DNA of 39,890 nt from Clostridium sp. (GTDB lineage Bacteria; Bacillota; Dethiobacteria; Dethiobacterales; Dethiobacteraceae). Below, in pieces: positions 15,730-39,890 of this stretch. The notes under the pieces were generated by a model. It was not told the DNA's origin and searched no databases. It worked only from the letters and a program-made list of their open reading frames with translations. Position 1 is the stretch's first letter. Every line of letters starts with the position of its first letter. The translations under genes were made by a program, and so were the position numbers. The stretch is taken from positions 1 through 39,890 of the forward strand of contig JAGXRV010000051.1 of NCBI GenBank assembly GCA_018335695.1. The letters are read 5' to 3'.

Positions 15730-16472
15730 TGTGGTGGCTGGTCTTTGTTGTCAGCCTTTTCATCGGTTCTTTTCTTAATGTCTGCATTTACCGCATTCCG
15801 CGTGGCGAGTCGGTAGTTTTCCCTCCTTCAGCTTGTCCGGCTTGCGGTCGGCGGTTAAGGCCGGTCGAGCTGATTCCGGTGTTAAGCTATTTCTTGCAGT
15901 CCGGCCGCTGCCGCGGCTGCGGCTCGGCGGTCTCCTGGCGTTATCCCGCAGTGGAGTTTTTGACGGCGCTTGTTTTTACAGCGCTTTTCTTGCGTTTCGG
16001 TTGGCCTGATTTTTTCTTCCAGGCTGTTTTCTACGCTGTATTGCTCGTGATTTTCTTTATTGACCTGGAGCATCAGATTATCCCAAATCGTTTGGTATTG
16101 ATACTTTTTGGCTATGCATTGCTGCTGCGTTTTGTTTCGCCGGCGGTTCCCTGGGCGACTTCGCTGTGGGGAGGGCTGCTGGGCGGCGGCCTGTTTTTTT
16201 TCCTGGCTGTGGTAAGCCGGGGAGGGATGGGCGGTGGCGACATCAAGCTGGTGACGGTGCTTGGTTTTTGGTTTGGCTGGGGGCATTTGCTGCTCTTGCT
16301 ATTTTTAGCTTTTTTAACGGGAGGGCTGCTTGGCGGGCTGCTTTTGCTTCTGCGTATAAAAAATCGTAAAGATGGGATTCCTTTTGGTCCGTTTCTGGTG
16401 TTGGCAGCTTTTGTTGTCACCGTATGGGGCGAAAGTATTTTAGGTTGGTATTTGCGGTTAAGCGGCATTTAG
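15729..16472 (+). CDS. pilD: Prepilin peptidase PilD (leader peptidase / N-methyltransferase)
   Basis: A 247-residue polytopic membrane protease that cleaves prepilins after the conserved Gly and usually methylates the new N-terminus. Two CxxC pairs (CPACGRR near residue 37 and CRGCGS near 59) form the cytoplasmic zinc site, the catalytic aspartates are in FFIDLEHQIIPNRL and GGGDIKL (GxGDxK motif). About seven hydrophobic helices are visible. It would process PilA, the two minor pilin sets, and all other Gly-Glu-type prepilins in the window. It follows pilT by a TAATG overlap and is followed by a terminator at 16496-16530. Confidence 0.95.
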   Translation: MWWLVFVVSLFIGSFLNVCIYRIPRGESVVFPPSACPACGRRLRPVELIPVLSYFLQSGRCRGCGSAVSWRYPAVEFLTALVFTALFLRFGWPDFFFQAVFYAVLLVIFFIDLEHQIIPNRLVLILFGYALLLRFVSPAVPWATSLWGGLLGGGLFFFLAVVSRGGMGGGDIKLVTVLGFWFGWGHLLLLLFLAFLTGGLLGGLLLLLRIKNRKDGIPFGPFLVLAAFVVTVWGESILGWYLRLSGI

Positions 16473-16495
16473 TTGCATAAATAGCAGGCAAAGCG

Positions 16496-16530
16496 AGGCA
16501 CCGGAAACGTCGGTGTCTTTTTCGTTTTTT
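16496..16530 (+). terminator. Rho-independent terminator or attenuator after pilD
   Basis: AGGCACCG (16496-16503) and CGGTGTCT (16511-16518) form an 8-bp stem with one G-U pair and a 7-base loop, followed by TTTTTCGTTTTTT. It separates the machinery genes from the second minor pilin set, which begins only 25 bases later, so it may act as a partial stop. Confidence 0.7.
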
Positions 16531-16554
16531 GATGTCGAAATTTGGAGGGAAAAA

Positions 16555-16956
16555 ATGTCATCAAAGGAAGAAGCTGGCTTCTTGCTGCTTGAGTTGATTG
16601 TTGCTTTGGCAGTGCTTTTGCTTGTGAGTGTGCCAATGCTAGGCCTGCTTGCCATGGCGGCGGAGACGCAGGAGCGTGCGAGGCGCCATACGGCAGCAGC
16701 TTTTCTTGCCCGGGAGGTGATGGAAACGGTACGCAATCAAGGCTATTACCGTGCCGAAAGTATGGCCAGTGAGCCGTTAAGCGGCGGAGGTAAGTTTTTA
16801 ACGACTGTAAACGTTTCTGCTGCTGTGCCGGGGGTTAGCGGCTTAAAAAGGATTGCGGCGAATGTATCCTGGTATGAGCGGGATGGCAGGCAGCAAATCG
16901 AGTTGATTACTTATTTGGCGGGAGGTGAAACAATGGGAAGACGGGGCTTACGCTAA
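16555..16956 (+). CDS. PilV/GspI-like minor pilin (second set)
   Basis: ATG at 16555 follows TTTGGAGGGAAAAA and gives 133 residues beginning MSSKEEAGFLLLELIVALAV: Gly at -1, Phe at +1, Glu at +5. After the hydrophobic helix comes RRHTAAAFLAREVMETVRNQ, typical of PilV/GspI. It opens the second minor pilin cluster, just after the pilD terminator. Its last eight codons (MGRRGLR and a stop) are in the same frame as the likely start of the next pilin, an unusual arrangement explained by the apparent frameshift there. Confidence 0.75.
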   Translation: MSSKEEAGFLLLELIVALAVLLLVSVPMLGLLAMAAETQERARRHTAAAFLAREVMETVRNQGYYRAESMASEPLSGGGKFLTTVNVSAAVPGVSGLKRIAANVSWYERDGRQQIELITYLAGGETMGRRGLR

Positions 16957-17408
16957 TAGAAATTTTGGTATTTATGGCACTGATTATCTCGGTTGTGGCG
17001 GCGGTGCAGCTTTATCTGCCGCTTGGCAGTCTGTTTTGGGAGCGAAACGCTTCCTTGGCGGAGGCGCATCAACACGGGCGGATTGCTATGGAAGAATTAA
17101 GTCATGAACTGCAATATGCTTACAGAGTTAATTTTGAGCAGCAAAGAAGGGTGCTTACCTATTATAAACGAGTGGAAGGGGAGTTAAGACGTTATCGAAT
17201 ATATTTGCTTGGAAGACAGCTTTTGCTTGATTTGCCTACAGGAACGGCAGTGCCCTTGGCCGGCTGGATTGAAGATTTTTGGGCGGAACCGGCTGGGGAA
17301 TTGGGAGCAAGAGAGCTGCTCTATTTAAGAGTGATTGTAGCTCAAGGCGAGCAGCGCCTGAAATTGCAAAAAGCAGTTTCGCCGAGAAATGTGGGGAAAG
17401 AATGGTGA
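16933..17408 (+). pseudogene. PilW/GspJ-like prepilin with frameshifted N-terminus
   Basis: ATG at 16933, behind GGGAGGTGAAACA, opens MGRRGL and then stops at 16954-16956. Reading the same DNA one base back from 16950 gives TLIEILVFMALIISVVAAVQ and about 150 residues of a normal PilW/GspJ pilin to 17408. Joined, they would make MGRRGLTLIEILVFMALIIS, a perfect prepilin motif (Gly -1, Glu +5). In the long frame there is no ATG, GTG or TTG upstream of the motif; the only start (TTG 16965) would lose the cleavage site. So the gene is broken by a single missing base, is rescued by -1 frameshifting, or the base is an assembly error. The remainder of the frame is intact, and it overlaps the next gene by seven bases. 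Confidence 0.7.
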
Positions 17409-18457
17409 CAGGTCAAAGGGGTTATGCGCTGTTGCTGTTGTTGGTTGCTACTTTATTGATTCTTTTGTTGGGCAGCACAATTTTTCTGATCGCTTTTTCT
17501 GATTTGCGGGTCAGCCGTCATTTGGCAGAGGCTGACAGAGCCTTCTATTACGCCGAAGCAGGAGTTGAGCTGCTGAAGTCACGTTTGCCCCGCAATTTCA
17601 GAGAGATACAGGGATACCGCTTGCAGACAGAAAAACTGGATAGTCCCCGCTTTAGCGGCTCTGTTACTCCGCTCCCGGGGGAAGAGTACGCATTTCTCTT
17701 GACTGCCGAAGGTCAGTTTGCAGATAAACGGCGCGAAGCGAGAGCGGAGGCACGTTACTTTCCTTTCGGAGGCAATGCGGTGTTTGCCGGTAATTTTCAG
17801 GCAGCCGGAGCCACTGTGCAAGGCAGTGTTTACGCAGACAATTTTCTGGTCGCTGCGGGAGAGACAAAGATTAGCGGTGATCTGACGGTAAAAGGAGTCG
17901 AAACAATCGGAGGAAGCTATTATTATCAGGGACGAAAACTGCCGCGGGAGGGGTCTGGGTTGTTATGGCCTGACCTTGAGAGCCTAACGGCAAAGGCAAT
18001 AACAGATGGCTGGCCTGTGCCGCTTAGCGCAAACGGGAGCTACAGGCTTGAAAATACGGCGACAGGTATTTTTTATGTACCGGGAGATTTAGAGCTAAGC
18101 GGCTGGCTTGGCAGCCAACTGTTTGCGGTGGTGGCGGGAGATGTGTTGCTTTGCAGTCTGCCGGCCGGTCAGGTAGTTTTGTTTGCCCAAGGTGAAATTA
18201 AGCTGCAAGCGTGCGGCATTGCAAATACTTCGCAGAGTCAGAGTCTGCTTTTTTATAGTCTTGAGCGGATTACGGTTTTAGGGGATTGTCTGTCGTTTCG
18301 TGGTGTCTTGCTCGCGCCGGAGGTAGAACTTCAGGGGGTGTCGCTGCTCTACTGCCACCGCGCCGCGCTGCCTTGGCTTAGTCTGGCGCCGGCGGAATTG
18401 CTTGCGATTAGTCCGACCTATGCGCTCGAGTGGTTGGAGACAAGAATAAGAAGGTGA
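17402..18457 (+). CDS. PilX-like pilus assembly protein (second set)
   Basis: ATG at 17402, overlapping the previous stop, gives 351 residues beginning MVTGQRGYALLLLLVATLLI, a Gly-hydrophobic PilX-type N-terminus without Glu at +5. DLRVSRHLAEADRAFYYAEA is the conserved PilX segment where long-distance contacts are made. The C-terminal ~200 residues alternate short Gly-Asp and hydrophobic strands (VQGSVYADNFLVAAGETKIS, GDLTVKGVETIGG), like a beta-helix or bactofilin-type domain, similar in type to the minus-strand PilX-like protein at 5403-6509. ATG follows GGGGAAAGA. Confidence 0.7.
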   Translation: MVTGQRGYALLLLLVATLLILLLGSTIFLIAFSDLRVSRHLAEADRAFYYAEAGVELLKSRLPRNFREIQGYRLQTEKLDSPRFSGSVTPLPGEEYAFLLTAEGQFADKRREARAEARYFPFGGNAVFAGNFQAAGATVQGSVYADNFLVAAGETKISGDLTVKGVETIGGSYYYQGRKLPREGSGLLWPDLESLTAKAITDGWPVPLSANGSYRLENTATGIFYVPGDLELSGWLGSQLFAVVAGDVLLCSLPAGQVVLFAQGEIKLQACGIANTSQSQSLLFYSLERITVLGDCLSFRGVLLAPEVELQGVSLLYCHRAALPWLSLAPAELLAISPTYALEWLETRIRR

Positions 18458-18474
18458 AACAAGAAGGTGAAACT

Positions 18475-18927
18475 ATGGAGAGACGGCGTCAAGGAGTTGT
18501 TCTGACTGAATTACTGATTGTCTTTCTGCTTTTGGCAATTTTAACTGCGATAGCCGTTCCTGTGATGCGTTCCCTTGGTCAATGGCCGCTGCGCGCTGCG
18601 TCACAAGAGATGGCGGCGCGGATTAGAGAGGCGCGTCAAACAGCGATGGCTACAGGCAAAGTATGTTTTGTGGTATTTTTTGAGTTTAGCGGCCGCTATC
18701 GCTTGGAGTTGCCGACTGGCAGAGAGTGGGTCAATCTGCCCGCTGGAGTTGTTTTTAGCGGCATAAATTTCCCGCGGTTTGACAACCGTCCCACAGTATA
18801 TTTTCGCTATACCGGTGCGCCTAATCGAGGTGGTCACTTGATTTTACGCGACGCAGGCGGCAGGCGACGCTATATTATTGTCACACCGGTGACGGGAAGA
18901 GTGAGAATCAGTGAAACGCCGCCCTAA
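18475..18927 (+). CDS. GspH/FimT-like minor pilin
   Basis: ATG at 18475 (behind GAAGGTGAAACT) gives 150 residues starting MERRRQGVVLTELLIVFLLL: Gly at -1, Val +1, Glu +5. A GspH/FimT-type segment QEMAARIREARQTAMATGK follows the helix, and the C-terminal beta domain ends in RRRYIIVTPVTGRVRI, the usual FimT ending (xGRV). It is last of the second minor pilin set. The upstream AAGGTGAAAC is tandemly duplicated (18451-18472), and the second copy serves as its ribosome-binding site. Confidence 0.8.
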   Translation: MERRRQGVVLTELLIVFLLLAILTAIAVPVMRSLGQWPLRAASQEMAARIREARQTAMATGKVCFVVFFEFSGRYRLELPTGREWVNLPAGVVFSGINFPRFDNRPTVYFRYTGAPNRGGHLILRDAGGRRRYIIVTPVTGRVRISETPP

Positions 18928-19070
18928 ATTAGTCAGTCAGCAGGCAGAAAAGAGGTTAAGAGAGAAAATATTTGTTTGTCTATTTTTGCCGGCAGGTTAA
19001 TTGTCTTTTGGCGTCGAATTCCAAACTTTGGTCAAAGGGAGCGCAAAGGTTATCGCTATCTTTTACTTTT

Positions 19071-19104
19071 CCCCTCTCCCTCTGGGAGAGGGCTAGGGTG
19101 AGGG
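19071..19104. repeat. Repeat family A, copy 3 (inverted)
   Basis: CCCCTCTCCCTCTGGGAGAG then GGCTAGGGTGAGGG is family A in reverse orientation. It lies in the 211-base gap between the pilin set and the CBS-PAS-HD gene, with no other feature recognised in that gap. Confidence 0.85.
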
Positions 19105-19138
19105 CACTTCTCCCCTTGACAGCACAGGAGGCAGCAGT

Positions 19139-20572
19139 ATGCAGGCAAAAGAGATTATGATTACAGACCTTCCGCTTGTGACGGCAAGCGCAAGCTTGAC
19201 ACAGCTTGCGCAGGTTATGGTGGCTAAAAATTCTTCCCATGTGCTTGTTGTCGCTGAGGATAATAAACTGCTGGGTTTGGTTGCAGGGATGGATTTGCGC
19301 AAGGCGTTGGCGGAAGGCAAGCTAAATTTTAGTGCGGAGCAAATAATGACGCCAAGGCAAAAACTGCTGGTAGCTTTTCCCGATACGCCGCTTGAGGAGG
19401 CGGCTGCTGTCTTATCAGGTAAAAAGATTTCCCAATTGCCGATAGTGCAAAATGAAGTGCCGGTTGGTTATTTGCATTTAAATACGGTACTCGAGAAAAC
19501 TTCTCAGTCGGCAAAGAAAAGCAGAGATCAACTTGAGCAGTTTCGTCAGGCGGCTTTATTGGTGGAAGCTATGCGTGAAGGTTTGGCGGTGGTCGATCGT
19601 GACTACCGCTTGCGTGAGTTTAATCCGGCAGCGGCGGAGTATAGCGGCTTGACGGCGAAGCAGCTTCTGGGGCGGCGGTCTAAGCTGTATTTTGAAGATA
19701 ATTCTCCGGTAAGACGGGTAATGGAAACAGGCGAGGCGTTGCTGAATTTGGAAGTAAAAAATTCACGGGAACAAGTGTTTATGACTAATAATGTTCCCAT
19801 CATTGTGGACGGCGAGATTGCGGGTGTAATGCAAACATTTTCTGAGATCACTGAGTTGAAGCGTCTGCAGCAGCAATTGTTTAATACAAAAGAAGAACTT
19901 GATAAAGCGTTTGCTCTGACATTGCCCAATTCGAGGGTAGAGTATAAGTTAAAAAGTACGCCGGAATACAGGGATGTGTTTAACGCCGCAAACGGGTTGA
20001 TTGAAATAACGGAAGTGATTGAAGACGGAGGATATCAGCATGTGGTCAACGCTTTAAAGGTGGCGGCCGATTTAAATGAAAAAGGATTAATGGGGCTCCT
20101 GGGAATCGATAAGGATATTCTTGTGCAGGCTTTGATTTTTCATGACTTGGGAAAGTCACAGCCGGTGCTTAATGTGGGTCAGATTACAGATCCGAAGAAA
20201 GCATTTGAGCCAGGTATGATGCATGCGATGCGTAGTGCGGATATTGCGGAAAATTATTATCAAAAGCCAAAAGATGTGGTAACTTTGATTCGCTATCACC
20301 ATCATAGCGCAGAGCAATTGCCGGCTGATTTTCCCAGCCATCTTTTGCCTATGCTGCGTTTGCTGCAGGTTATCGACGGGCTTTCTGCCGGATTGACAAG
20401 AAGAAACGGCAGGATTGGTTTTCGCGTAAACGGTTCACGTGTCACAATTGTGGAGAATAATGCTCATCCGGCCTATAATCGGACGATTGAAGTAGATTTG
20501 TATACCGGAGAGGATTTTGTGTATAATGGAATAAAATTGCTAAAGATAAAACGGGAGGCCGCAACAACGTGA
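19139..20572 (+). CDS. CBS-PAS-HD domain signalling protein
   Basis: A 477-residue soluble regulator. Residues ~1-120 hold two CBS motifs (MQAKEIMITDLPLVTASASL and AEQIMTPRQKLLVAFPDTPL), residues ~135-250 a PAS domain (MREGLAVVDRDYRLREFNPA), then an HD-type phosphohydrolase (about 270-440) with QHVVNAL, FHDLGKSQ, MMHAMRSADIAENYY, RYHHHSAEQ and LLQVIDGLS. All HD metal ligands appear to be present. CBS domains usually bind adenine nucleotides and PAS domains small ligands, so this is likely a sensor with nucleotide hydrolase output. It is not a GYP-type c-di-GMP phosphodiesterase by sequence. It overlaps aroK by four bases (GTGA). Confidence 0.8.
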   Translation: MQAKEIMITDLPLVTASASLTQLAQVMVAKNSSHVLVVAEDNKLLGLVAGMDLRKALAEGKLNFSAEQIMTPRQKLLVAFPDTPLEEAAAVLSGKKISQLPIVQNEVPVGYLHLNTVLEKTSQSAKKSRDQLEQFRQAALLVEAMREGLAVVDRDYRLREFNPAAAEYSGLTAKQLLGRRSKLYFEDNSPVRRVMETGEALLNLEVKNSREQVFMTNNVPIIVDGEIAGVMQTFSEITELKRLQQQLFNTKEELDKAFALTLPNSRVEYKLKSTPEYRDVFNAANGLIEITEVIEDGGYQHVVNALKVAADLNEKGLMGLLGIDKDILVQALIFHDLGKSQPVLNVGQITDPKKAFEPGMMHAMRSADIAENYYQKPKDVVTLIRYHHHSAEQLPADFPSHLLPMLRLLQVIDGLSAGLTRRNGRIGFRVNGSRVTIVENNAHPAYNRTIEVDLYTGEDFVYNGIKLLKIKREAATT

Positions 20573-34641: not shown

Positions 34642-34734
34642 GCTTATCAGAAAATTATATTTCACTCTGATTATCCAGCTAGCAGGAAAAACAACTGTGC
34701 AGATAAAATAATACATTTTAGGGAGGGATTTTTG

Positions 34735-35592
34735 ATGAGTGCAAAATTGATCAAAGGGCCTGAAGTGGCGGCCGCAATCCGGGAGCAAATCGCAGTCGAT
34801 TTGGTAAGCCTGAAGGAGAAAACGGGTAAAGTTCCCGGCTTAGCCGTTATCCTGTTGGGCGAAGATCCGGCATCCAAAGCGTATGTTGGCAACAAAGAGA
34901 AAACGAGCAAAGCTCTCGGTTTCCACTCCGTCGTCCACCGGGTCCCAGCAGAAACGACTCAGGAACAACTGCTGAAAATGATTGACGAACTAAACAGAGA
35001 CGAAGATATCCACGGCATCTTGGTGCAGCTTCCGTTGCCTGACCACATTCAAGAGAAAGCAGTAATTGATGCGATTGCTGTTGAAAAAGATGTGGACGGT
35101 TTTCATCCGATAAATGTCGGCAATCTAATGATCGGCGATGATTGCTACATACCTTGTACGCCGCATGGTTGCATGAAAATGCTGGAATATATCGGCTATG
35201 ATCTGAAGGGGAAAAATGCAGTCGTTGTCGGTCGCAGTAACATTGTGGGCAAGCCGGTGGCATTGCTTTTGCTGCAGCAACATGCCACGGTCACCATTTG
35301 TCATTCCCGCACCGCAGACTTGGCGGCTGTTTGTCGTGAGGCTGACGTTCTGGTCGTTGCCGTAGGGCGTGCTGAAATGGTTAGTGGTGATTGGATTAAG
35401 CCGGGAGCTATAGTGATAGACGTCGGCATCAACCGTGTAGATGATAAGCTGGTGGGCGATGTCCATTTTGAGAGCGCTAAAGAGAAAGCGTCTTATATTA
35501 CTCCCGTACCCGGTGGTGTTGGTCCGATGACAATTACCATGCTGATGCTAAATACGTTGGAGTCATTTAAACGCAAGCACAATCTAAAGTAA
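34735..35592 (+). CDS. folD: Bifunctional methylene-THF dehydrogenase / methenyl-THF cyclohydrolase
   Basis: A 285-residue FolD. The substrate lysine motif [15 protein letters not shown] has Tyr and Lys as in the catalytic Y52/K56 pair of human MTHFD1, [13 protein letters not shown] has the conserved Gln, and [12 protein letters not shown] the Asp. NADP binding: [20 protein letters not shown]. It interconverts methylene- and formyl-type folates. ATG 34735 follows GGGAGGGATTTTTG; TTG 34732 is an alternative. A second, diverged copy follows directly. Confidence 0.95.
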
Positions 35593-35611
35593 GAAAGCAG
35601 GAGGGATTACC

Positions 35612-36445
35612 ATGGCTGCCCGTGTGATTGATGGCAGTGCCATCGCCAAGGAGTTGCAACAAAAAATTAAAGCTGATGTGGCCAAGTTGAAAGAGCAAGA
35701 TAAAACTCCAGGGTTGGCCATTGTAGTTGTTAACAGTCCGGTAGCGCGAACGAATATTGCCGAGTTGAAAAAGCGGATGTGTGACAGTGCGGGTATTTAT
35801 TGTGAAGTACACACGCTCAACTCGCTTTCCGGGCAGGCAAATGTTATCGCACTTGTCGAGAAGCTAAACGCCGATCCAAAGATTACCGGAATTAACATCC
35901 ATCCTATGCCAAACCATATTGATTACCGGGCGGTCGTACATGCCATTGCCCCGCAAAAAGATGTGGAAGGCGTTCATCCCGAGAATATGGGCAACTTTTT
36001 GCTTGGCGATAAGCGCTTTATTCCGTTTACCCCGCGCGGAATTATGAAGCTGATTGAAAGTACGGGAATTGAGCTGAAAGGGAAACGCGCCGTCATCGTA
36101 GGGCGAAGCCAGCATGTCGGCCTGCCGGTAGGCTTTTTGCTCCTGGAGCGGCACGCCACTGTCTCTTTTGCCCATTCGCGCTCTTGGTACTTGGAGCATT
36201 TGACTAGTCAGGCAGATGTGCTGATTGTGGCTGCCGGTCATCCGGAGATGATTACCGGTTCTATGGTAAAGCCTGGGGCTGTCGTAATTGATGTGGGGAC
36301 TAATCTGGTCGGCGGTCATCTTGTGGGTGATGTTGAGCATGACAGCGTCGGCCAAGTGGCCGGTTGGCTGACTCCCGTTCCCGGAGGCGTGGGACCGATG
36401 ACTGTGGCAATGTTGTTAAACAATCTGATTGGATGTTGCAATTAG
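35612..36445 (+). CDS. Diverged FolD paralogue
   Basis: A 277-residue homologue of the folD product upstream, with the same NADP motif (VIVGRSQHVGLPVGFLLLER) and C-terminal [14 protein letters not shown]. The catalytic set is changed: in TNIAELKKRMCDSAGI the Lys is kept but the Tyr position is Ile; LVQLPLP has become NIHPMP (Gln to His, one residue lost); KDVDG is KDVEG (Asp to Glu). These suggest altered or lost cyclohydrolase activity, or another substrate. It has its own ribosome site (CAGGAGGG) and is 20 bases behind folD, so both are made together. Confidence 0.85.
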   Translation: MAARVIDGSAIAKELQQKIKADVAKLKEQDKTPGLAIVVVNSPVARTNIAELKKRMCDSAGIYCEVHTLNSLSGQANVIALVEKLNADPKITGINIHPMPNHIDYRAVVHAIAPQKDVEGVHPENMGNFLLGDKRFIPFTPRGIMKLIESTGIELKGKRAVIVGRSQHVGLPVGFLLLERHATVSFAHSRSWYLEHLTSQADVLIVAAGHPEMITGSMVKPGAVVIDVGTNLVGGHLVGDVEHDSVGQVAGWLTPVPGGVGPMTVAMLLNNLIGCCN

Positions 36446-37688: not shown

Positions 37689-38006
37689 CTATTTCACCAG
37701 CCACCCATAATCCTGTCTGCAATCCACAATATAATCAACATACACCGTCTGATCCTTAATCTGATACAGAATAAGATAGCACTTCTCAACGAACATTTTA
37801 TGATACTTGTTTAATGGTATGAATTCAGCATTAAGAAAAGGAAAACGCTCCGACATGGTGGAGAGGGAGCGGATAGCGTCCAACAATTCATGCTTTGTTC
37901 TGCGAGCGGCAGCAGGACTTTTTTGTGCCAGAAAACGCACATGAGCCGCCAGCATCTGAAGGGCACGATCGGAAACAATCACCTTATATTGAGGCTTATT
38001 TTCCAT
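37689..38006 (-). CDS. RelE/ParE-type toxin
   Basis: ATG at 38006 follows GAGGTG, and gives 105 residues beginning MENKPQYKVIVSDRALQMLA. The central AARRTKHELLDAIRSLSTMS and C-terminal VEKCYLILYQIKDQTVYVDY are the beta-strand core of RelE/ParE toxins; DCRQDYGWLVK is the basic tail. Such proteins cut mRNA at the ribosome (RelE) or hit gyrase (ParE); the exact target cannot be told. It overlaps its antitoxin gene by 11 bases, on the strand opposite to xseA/xseB. Confidence 0.85.
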   Translation of the reverse strand: MENKPQYKVIVSDRALQMLAAHVRFLAQKSPAAARRTKHELLDAIRSLSTMSERFPFLNAEFIPLNKYHKMFVEKCYLILYQIKDQTVYVDYIVDCRQDYGWLVK

Positions 38007-38274
38007 GTTCCACCTCATCAATAATGCTGTCCAGATATCTGTCGAGCTCATCCGGTGTCACTCCGGCGCGTCCGGCCAGACGGTCTTCCTCAACAGCCAA
38101 CAGTTCTTCACGCAACTTTAGCATTTTCTCACGGCGGACAAAGGTAGCTATATCCATAACCACAAGATCGCCTTCGCCGTTTTTGGTAAGATACACAGGC
38201 TCTCCGGAGGATTTGCATAAAGCCGCAATTTCATTGTAATTTTGCCGGATGCTTGCGGACGGTTTAATCAGCAT
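37996..38274 (-). CDS. Phd/YefM-type antitoxin
   Basis: A 92-residue antitoxin: the N-terminus MLIKPSASIRQNYNEIAALC and GEPVYLTKNGEGDLVVMDIA are the Phd/YefM fold that binds operator DNA as a dimer, and the charged C-terminus (TPDELDRYLDSIIDEVEHGK) would neutralise the toxin. ATG is preceded by TAAGGAGTTGATACC. It should autoregulate from the promoter at 38308-38336. Confidence 0.88.
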   Translation of the reverse strand: MLIKPSASIRQNYNEIAALCKSSGEPVYLTKNGEGDLVVMDIATFVRREKMLKLREELLAVEEDRLAGRAGVTPDELDRYLDSIIDEVEHGK

Positions 38275-38426: not shown

Positions 38427-38472
38427 CGACTAGATGTTAGCAAGCAAGACAAACGTATGCGGAGGAAAGCTA

Positions 38473-38721
38473 ATGACTAAAGCGAGCCAAGCCAAATTAA
38501 CATTAACATTTGAGCAAGCGCTGAAGCGCTTGGAAGAGGTATTGGCAAGCCTGGAGCGTAGTGACTGCCCATTGGAAGAAGCTTTGGCTCTTTACCAAGA
38601 AGGAATGGGTTTGCTCAGGCAATGTCGCCAAAAGTTGGCTGATGCGGAAGGTAAAGTAGCAGTATTGTTAAAAGAAGCGGGGGAGTTTGTTCCTTTAACG
38701 GGGGAGGGGGAAAGCTGGTGA
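38473..38721 (+). CDS. xseB: Exodeoxyribonuclease VII small subunit
   Basis: ATG 38473 behind GCGGAGGAAAGC gives 82 residues, usual for this subunit. LTFEQALKRLEEVLASLERS and PLEEALALYQEGMGLLRQCR are the typical XseB helices. Six such subunits pack around one XseA. A longer frame starting at 38434 lacks a ribosome site. Its stop overlaps the ispA GTG start. Confidence 0.93.
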   Translation: MTKASQAKLTLTFEQALKRLEEVLASLERSDCPLEEALALYQEGMGLLRQCRQKLADAEGKVAVLLKEAGEFVPLTGEGESW

Positions 38722-39599
38722 CATTTGAGATTGGCAGAACTGTGGCGCAAGTGGATGAAGCTCTTAATCGACTTCTTCCTCCGGAAGGTACTTTCCCTGA
38801 GGAAATTCACGGCGCCATCCGTTACAGTGTTTTTGCCGGCGGTAAGCGGTTGCGTCCGCTACTGACATTAAGTGCTGCCGAAATCTTCGGTGTTCCTCAG
38901 CTGCATGCCATGCCGGCTGCTTGTTCGTTGGAAATGGTGCATACTTACTCACTGATCCATGATGATCTGCCGGCATTGGATAATGATAATTATCGGCGCG
39001 GACGCTTCTCCAACCATAAAGTATACGGTGAGGCAATTGCGATCCTGGCGGGAGACGCCCTGTTAACCATGGCATTTGAAACGTTGGCCGGAGAAGCCTC
39101 TGCCTATTTTCCTGCTGCGACAGTAGTGCGTTTAATGGAAGAGTTGAGCAAAGCAGCCGGGGTTAGCGGCATGATCGCCGGTCAAGTGGTAGATATCCTC
39201 TCCGAGGGGAAGCAAATCAGCGCCGAGCGATTGGATTATATTCATCGCCACAAGACGGGAGCACTCTTTAATTGCGCTATTCGCAGCGGTGCAATCATGG
39301 GCGGCGCATCGCTTGCAGAACTGCGGATTCTTACTTCTTTTGCGGATAAGATGGGTCTTGCTTTTCAGATTGTTGATGATCTGCTGGACATCACCGGCGA
39401 ACAAGCATTGTTAGGCAAAAAGACAGGCGTTGATCTTGAGCGTCAAAAAGCGACATATCCTGCGCTTTTTGGCTTGGAAGCCGCACAAAAAAAGGCTGTT
39501 GACCTCTTATTTGACGCAGAGCAAGAGCTGGAAGCTTTCGGTGAGGCTGCGGCAAGTCTTTATTATCTTGCGCAAAAATTGGTGCATCGCCAGTGCTAA
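38718..39599 (+). CDS. ispA: Farnesyl/geranylgeranyl diphosphate synthase (short-chain polyprenyl synthase)
   Basis: A 293-residue trans-prenyltransferase read from GTG 38718. It has GGKRLRPLLTLSAAEIFG, the first Asp-rich motif LIHDDLPALDND (DDxxxxD), GDALLTMAFE, and the second motif FQIVDDLLDITG (DDxxD). It condenses IPP with allylic diphosphates for cell-wall lipid carrier and quinone synthesis. xseB-ispA-(dxs) is the conserved order; dxs would lie beyond the window edge. Confidence 0.95.
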   Translation: MTFEIGRTVAQVDEALNRLLPPEGTFPEEIHGAIRYSVFAGGKRLRPLLTLSAAEIFGVPQLHAMPAACSLEMVHTYSLIHDDLPALDNDNYRRGRFSNHKVYGEAIAILAGDALLTMAFETLAGEASAYFPAATVVRLMEELSKAAGVSGMIAGQVVDILSEGKQISAERLDYIHRHKTGALFNCAIRSGAIMGGASLAELRILTSFADKMGLAFQIVDDLLDITGEQALLGKKTGVDLERQKATYPALFGLEAAQKKAVDLLFDAEQELEAFGEAAASLYYLAQKLVHRQC

Positions 39600-39734: not shown

Positions 39735-39763
39735 TTGTGTGTTTATCTAAGATATGTTACAAT
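39735..39763 (+). promoter_or_regulatory. Promoter ahead of the candidate OLE RNA
   Basis: TTGTGT (39735-39740), 17 bp and TACAAT (39758-39763), the latter preceded by TGT (extended -10). Start is predicted near 39770, at the beginning of the structured segment. Confidence 0.65.
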
Positions 39764-39769
39764 AGTCAA

Positions 39770-39890
39770 TGAATCCGTAAGTGGCGCAGTATTCTAGTTG
39801 ACGCGGCCGTTTCCGAGGACGGGCCTAAAAATCCGTAAAGGGCATAGCGATGAAGTTCTTGGTGCTGGCTGCCGACGCCCAGTTGGGGGC
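39770..39890 (+). ncRNA. Candidate OLE RNA, 5' part (runs off the window)
   Basis: The last 120 bases have no reading frame of note, begin behind a promoter, and contain compact complementary pieces such as GGCCGT/ACGGGCC (39802-39824) and a repeated ATCCGTAA (39773 and 39830). OLE (ornate, large, extremophilic) RNAs are about 600 nt and lie in Firmicutes in the nusB-folD-xseA-xseB-ispA-dxs isoprenoid cluster, usually between ispA and dxs with the OapA protein gene nearby. The place matches exactly. I could not compare with the family alignment, so identity is inferred from position, promoter and lack of coding; other structured RNAs are possible. Confidence 0.55.

Follow-up and report, generated by a model that had tools for sequence, protein, structure and literature searches.

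Gene content at the end of the contig

The window, i.e., the whole stretch of 39,890 nucleotides analyzed here, corresponds to contig C51 in full, one of the 101 contigs of a 2.35-Mb assembly (source genome, G000). Near its right edge it encodes the small subunit of exodeoxyribonuclease VII and farnesyl diphosphate synthase, and the last 126 nt match the OLE RNA family of Rfam (Table 1). OLE is a large membrane-associated bacterial RNA whose biochemical function is unsettled. The match (cmscan, E = 2.2e-25 over the whole window) had a high posterior along the alignment and is cut on its 3' side by the end of the contig. An OLE RNA behind ispA at this edge had already been proposed by a sequence-only reading, which estimated the visible part at about 120 nt. 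The position of ispA is the usual one, since this gene was found upstream on the same strand at 103 of the 123 OLE loci with enough flank, and ispA-ole-oapA-dxs is the common order among OLE loci.

The same reading had described the end of the window as noncoding and structured. The first part is borne out, as no open reading frame of at least 60 amino acids covers positions 39770 to 39890. The second holds in one sense only: the folding energy of the 126 visible bases was no better than that of shuffled sequences (z = 0.26), and the structured nature of the region is supported by the covariance-model match, not by thermodynamics.

Table 1. Features of the ole locus and of candidate partner genes. 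Positions without a contig name refer to the window; C31, C38, and C82 are other contigs of the source assembly.
Feature	Position	Strand	Evidence and remarks
xseB, exodeoxyribonuclease VII small subunit	38434..38721	+	TIGR01280, 75.7 bits (cut-off, 35)
ispA, farnesyl diphosphate synthase, directly upstream of ole	38718..39599	+	NF045485, 358 bits (cut-off, 275)
-35 box TTGTGT (weak), predicted ole promoter	39735..39740	+	Read from the sequence; spacer, 17
Extended -10 box TGTTACAAT, predicted ole promoter	39755..39763	+	TGNTANANT conserved upstream of OLE genes
ole, 5' part	39765..39890	+	cmscan RF01071, 100.5 bits; model positions 1-127; cut by contig end
ole, continuation	C38:1-252		RF01071, 203.3 bits; model positions 369-616; ~200 nt absent in between
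oapA	C38:350-943	Same as ole	197 aa; 97 nt behind the OLE 3' end
OapC/YbxF candidate, L7Ae family	C82, between rpoC and rpsL		PDB 3v7e and 4lck (YbxF-type), 2e-14
OapB candidate, 109 aa	C31:16985-17314, between map and infA		PDB 7k9b, E = 4.8e-5

Other features were noted elsewhere in the window. Genes for a ParE-like toxin and a Phd/YefM-like antitoxin lie on the minus strand between xseA and xseB (37689-38274), and a tandem of two distinct FolD-type genes (methylenetetrahydrofolate dehydrogenase/cyclohydrolase) occupies 34732-36445. Within 1097-2900, an AbiEi/AbiEii type IV toxin-antitoxin pair precedes matches to the abiF RNA (38.9 bits at 2623-2659) and to a group II intron domain (106.8 bits at 2758-2900).

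The remainder of the ole gene

The OLE pieces of the source assembly were located by a DNA search using the OLE gene of G002, a genome of the same genus in which the gene is uninterrupted (578 nt, model positions 1-616, 462.6 bits). Two strong places were found: the edge of the window, where 122 of 126 bases are identical (97%), and the start of contig C38 (98% identity). The sequence-only reading had suggested applying the RF01071 model to the continuation of the gene and looking for oapA and dxs downstream. The piece on C38 matches the model, with its 5' side cut and its pairing intact, and both genes follow directly behind it. These results support the proposal, and neither of the outcomes named in that reading as contradicting it, the lack of a covariance-model hit or a protein-coding gene from 39770 onward, was observed. 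The order on this contig then continues with tlyA, a gene for a 139-aa protein, nadK, recN, and spoIVB, and that of G002 is the same to the limit of its 7-kb contig. The typical OLE neighborhood of isoprenoid, translation, repair, and sporulation genes is present, with xseB and ispA upstream and dxs, tlyA, nadK, recN, and spoIVB downstream. Both pieces score above the gathering score of RF01071 (50 bits), and together they provide 127 model positions on the 5' side and 248 on the 3' side. The middle of the RNA, some 200 nt including P7-P9 as gauged on the G002 RNA, is in neither C51 nor C38, and the OLE of the source genome consists of two pieces with an assembly gap of this size. From the G002 gene, the synteny, and the fact that the assembly holds no other OLE piece, we infer that C51 joins C38.

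Of the four genomes of the genus, three (G000, G001, and G003) have contig ends inside OLE. This could be expected if ole were truly interrupted there, e.g., by an inserted mobile element whose site the contig ends marked. An insertion would leave pieces that abut; instead, from about 200 nt (G000) to 333 nt (G001 and G003) are absent between them, which argues against a simple insertion in ole. Moreover, on either side of the break the pieces of G001 and G003 share an identical stretch of exactly 127 bases, the signature of a de Bruijn graph junction formed by co-assembled strains, and the gene of G002 is whole. We regard a true interruption as very improbable. Even harder to credit is the idea that the window holds a mere 5' remnant of OLE, with no working ole gene. 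Such a remnant would account for the window ending at model position 127, but one other contig edge carries the 3' part, which has intact pairing and is followed by oapA, the visible piece is nearly identical to the intact OLE of G002, and the ole promoter is conserved.

The reading that we favor, with a probability of about 0.96, is that positions 39765 to 39890 are the 5' end of an ole gene whose RNA is of the full-length type (about 578 nt), located in its usual cluster and split by the assembly only. Compared with the OLE class, nothing in the locus differs beyond within-class sequence divergence, and the truncation is apparent, reflecting the assembly gap. The class and the conserved core are also common to the variant 1 (TANB77) and variant 2 (RF39) OLE RNAs (PMC11332333). 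Variant 1 often lacks the P12-P13 region, whereas the 3' piece of the locus retains it. With this region retained and the G002 RNA spanning the whole model, the RNA looks like the full-length form, the strain's own P7-P9 falling outside the visible pieces. This is a genuine and ordinary OLE locus, which adds a further host to a known RNA class already reported from 2,822 Bacillota genomes (PMC11332333).

Predicted promoter and candidate 3' signals

The extended -10 promoter that the sequence-only reading had placed at about position 39735 is present (Table 1), accompanied by a weak -35 box, and the same TTGTGT-N17-TACAAT arrangement is found in all four genomes of the genus. A generic promoter scan did not list it, because its -35 box matches at only 3 of 6 positions. 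Among 135 distinct loci from GTDB genomes and relatives, which include related species and so are not independent, 110 have the motif TGNTANANT no more than 50 nt upstream of the conserved 5' block of OLE, against 5.7 expected by shuffling and 1 in windows 300 to 350 nt upstream. The extended -10 box was present in all 31 sequences compared by eye, and the best -35 words upstream of OLE were mostly TTGAGA, TTGAGC, TTGTTA, and similar ones. In Halalkalibacterium halodurans, the OLE cluster is transcribed as one polycistronic RNA (PMC12265935). The conservation of the promoter suggests that OLE may have its own transcription start besides the polycistronic one; in the present host, the RNA would probably be transcribed from the elements at 39735-39763, which gives a testable prediction of the start.

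A candidate intrinsic terminator behind OLE, consisting of CCTAC...GTAGG and a run of T, is visible in the genus. It was rejected: its folding is close to that of shuffled sequences (z = 0.78 and -0.01), and a terminator scan behind OLE listed none at this site. Most members of the family also have a TATAAT after the OLE 3' end (e.g., L155:252-275), 16 to 18 nt behind the conserved TTGCTC of that end, which is possibly an oapA promoter overlapping the RNA.

Protein partners and MpfA

Relatives of OapA were found in 37 of the 40 genomes compared, including the source genome. The protein encoded behind OLE on C38 is 42 to 96% identical to those encoded behind OLE in the relatives. Its match to the Pfam CNNM domain is below the cut-off (25.8 versus 28.4 bits; E = 1e-5), and such a weak match is expected for OapA (PMC11332333). 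Both the position behind ole and the weak CNNM match agree with OapA, a CNNM/DUF21-like membrane protein, and no difference was noted; a sequence search of the PDB with this protein returned no match. Candidates for the other two partners are encoded on different contigs (Table 1). For the putative OapB, the sole PDB match was OLE-associated protein B itself, with a modest score (26.7 bits).

The contig with the OapC/YbxF candidate carries an exact duplication of 3,848 bases (G000:C82:1-3848 and 16153-20000; L173), which comprises ybxF-rpsL-rpsG-fusA and ends just inside the start of tuf. It probably reflects an assembly error at the tuf copies and not a true duplication.

An anticorrelation between MpfA and OLE has been reported. 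The source genome gave no match to MpfA-type CorC_HlyC domains, and a genome of the same family (G008, 99% complete) has two such domains and neither OLE nor oapA, a pattern in line with the published anticorrelation. Several OLE-bearing relatives also have one MpfA-type CorC_HlyC domain. With the present locus, the OLE ribonucleoprotein gains one well-supported host in which each of the three essential partners has a candidate gene and MpfA is missing, in accordance with the published correlations. In another member of the family (G004), oapA lies on contig C145, and OLE was not matched in the 337 nt from the gene upstream to the contig end (L175:1-337); its relatives have the OLE 3' end within about 200 nt upstream of oapA. 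This genome also carries two MpfA-type genes, and loss or displacement of its OLE is possible.

Proposed function

The assignment of the locus is based on the match to the RNA family, synteny, partner genes, and the conservation of the promoter; its role can be proposed by analogy with other species. In H. halodurans and relatives, the 5' domain of OLE mediates its dimerization, OapA keeps the RNA at the membrane, OapC binds via a k-turn near P5, and OapB binds at P12.2/P13; the complex promotes growth in the cold, in the presence of alcohol or Mg2+, and on poor carbon sources (PMC12265935, PMC9723947, PMC12286853). The RNA encoded here, in an xseA-xseB-ispA-ole-oapA-dxs-tlyA-nadK-recN-spoIVB cluster of a Bacillota bacterium with sporulation genes, would dimerize through the same domain, be held at the membrane by the OapA of C38, and be bound at the corresponding k-turn and P12.2/P13 sites by the candidate OapC and OapB. 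The resulting ribonucleoprotein may aid adaptation to the same conditions. Membrane location, complex formation, and stress role are carried over here from published work on those species, and none of the features of the locus points to a mechanism other than that published for OLE. The truncated look of the gene would stem from a metagenome assembly that broke inside a conserved RNA.

OLE genes as probable assembly break points

DNA similarity searches detected OLE in 36 of 40 genomes (the source genome and 39 relatives) and gave no match in G004, G008, G020, and G027. Eight of these 36 genes (G000, G001, G003, G005, G014, G018, G037, and G039) run into a contig end, compared with the 1.57 that contig numbers would predict (P = 1e-4). 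As a control, each of the 37 genomes with the 591-bp oapA gave an almost full-length match to it on a single contig. The two OLE halves share terminal overlaps of 123 bases in G037 and 121 in G039. These overlaps, like the 127-base identities between G001 and G003, mark places where the de Bruijn graph was split by conserved sequence shared among co-assembled strains. The last 77 bases of the window are identical to G002 and the base just before them differs, which fits this cause without proving it.

A whole-genome search with RF01071 gave no match in G000, G001, G003, and G014, although these genomes contain OLE pieces scoring 74 to 203 bits; in G000, the pieces cut by contig ends were missed. 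OLE is often broken in metagenome assemblies, and presence calls are therefore likely to undercount it. In genome-mining surveys of this RNA, genes broken at contig edges will often be met, and a whole-model search can overlook them. We consider it likely that OLE across Bacillota uses its own conserved extended -10 promoter, and not only the ispA-dxs operon, and that it is a systematic break point of short-read assemblies, so that its presence, and its profiling against OapA and MpfA, would be undercounted in uncultured Bacillota.

A contig labelled Kiritimatiellae (SLBU01000065.1; L133) ends inside an OLE RNA (82.7 bits, model positions 1-110) and is probably a misbinned Bacillota contig. 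A complete OLE RNA (399.8 bits) is encoded on plasmid pMM59_01 of Pusillibacter faecalis (NZ_AP023421.1; L178:3292-3956), followed by a CNNM-domain oapA, dxs, tlyA, nadK, and argR. The replicon measures 504 kb and is typed as conjugative; among 72,556 plasmid records, no other had an OapA match.
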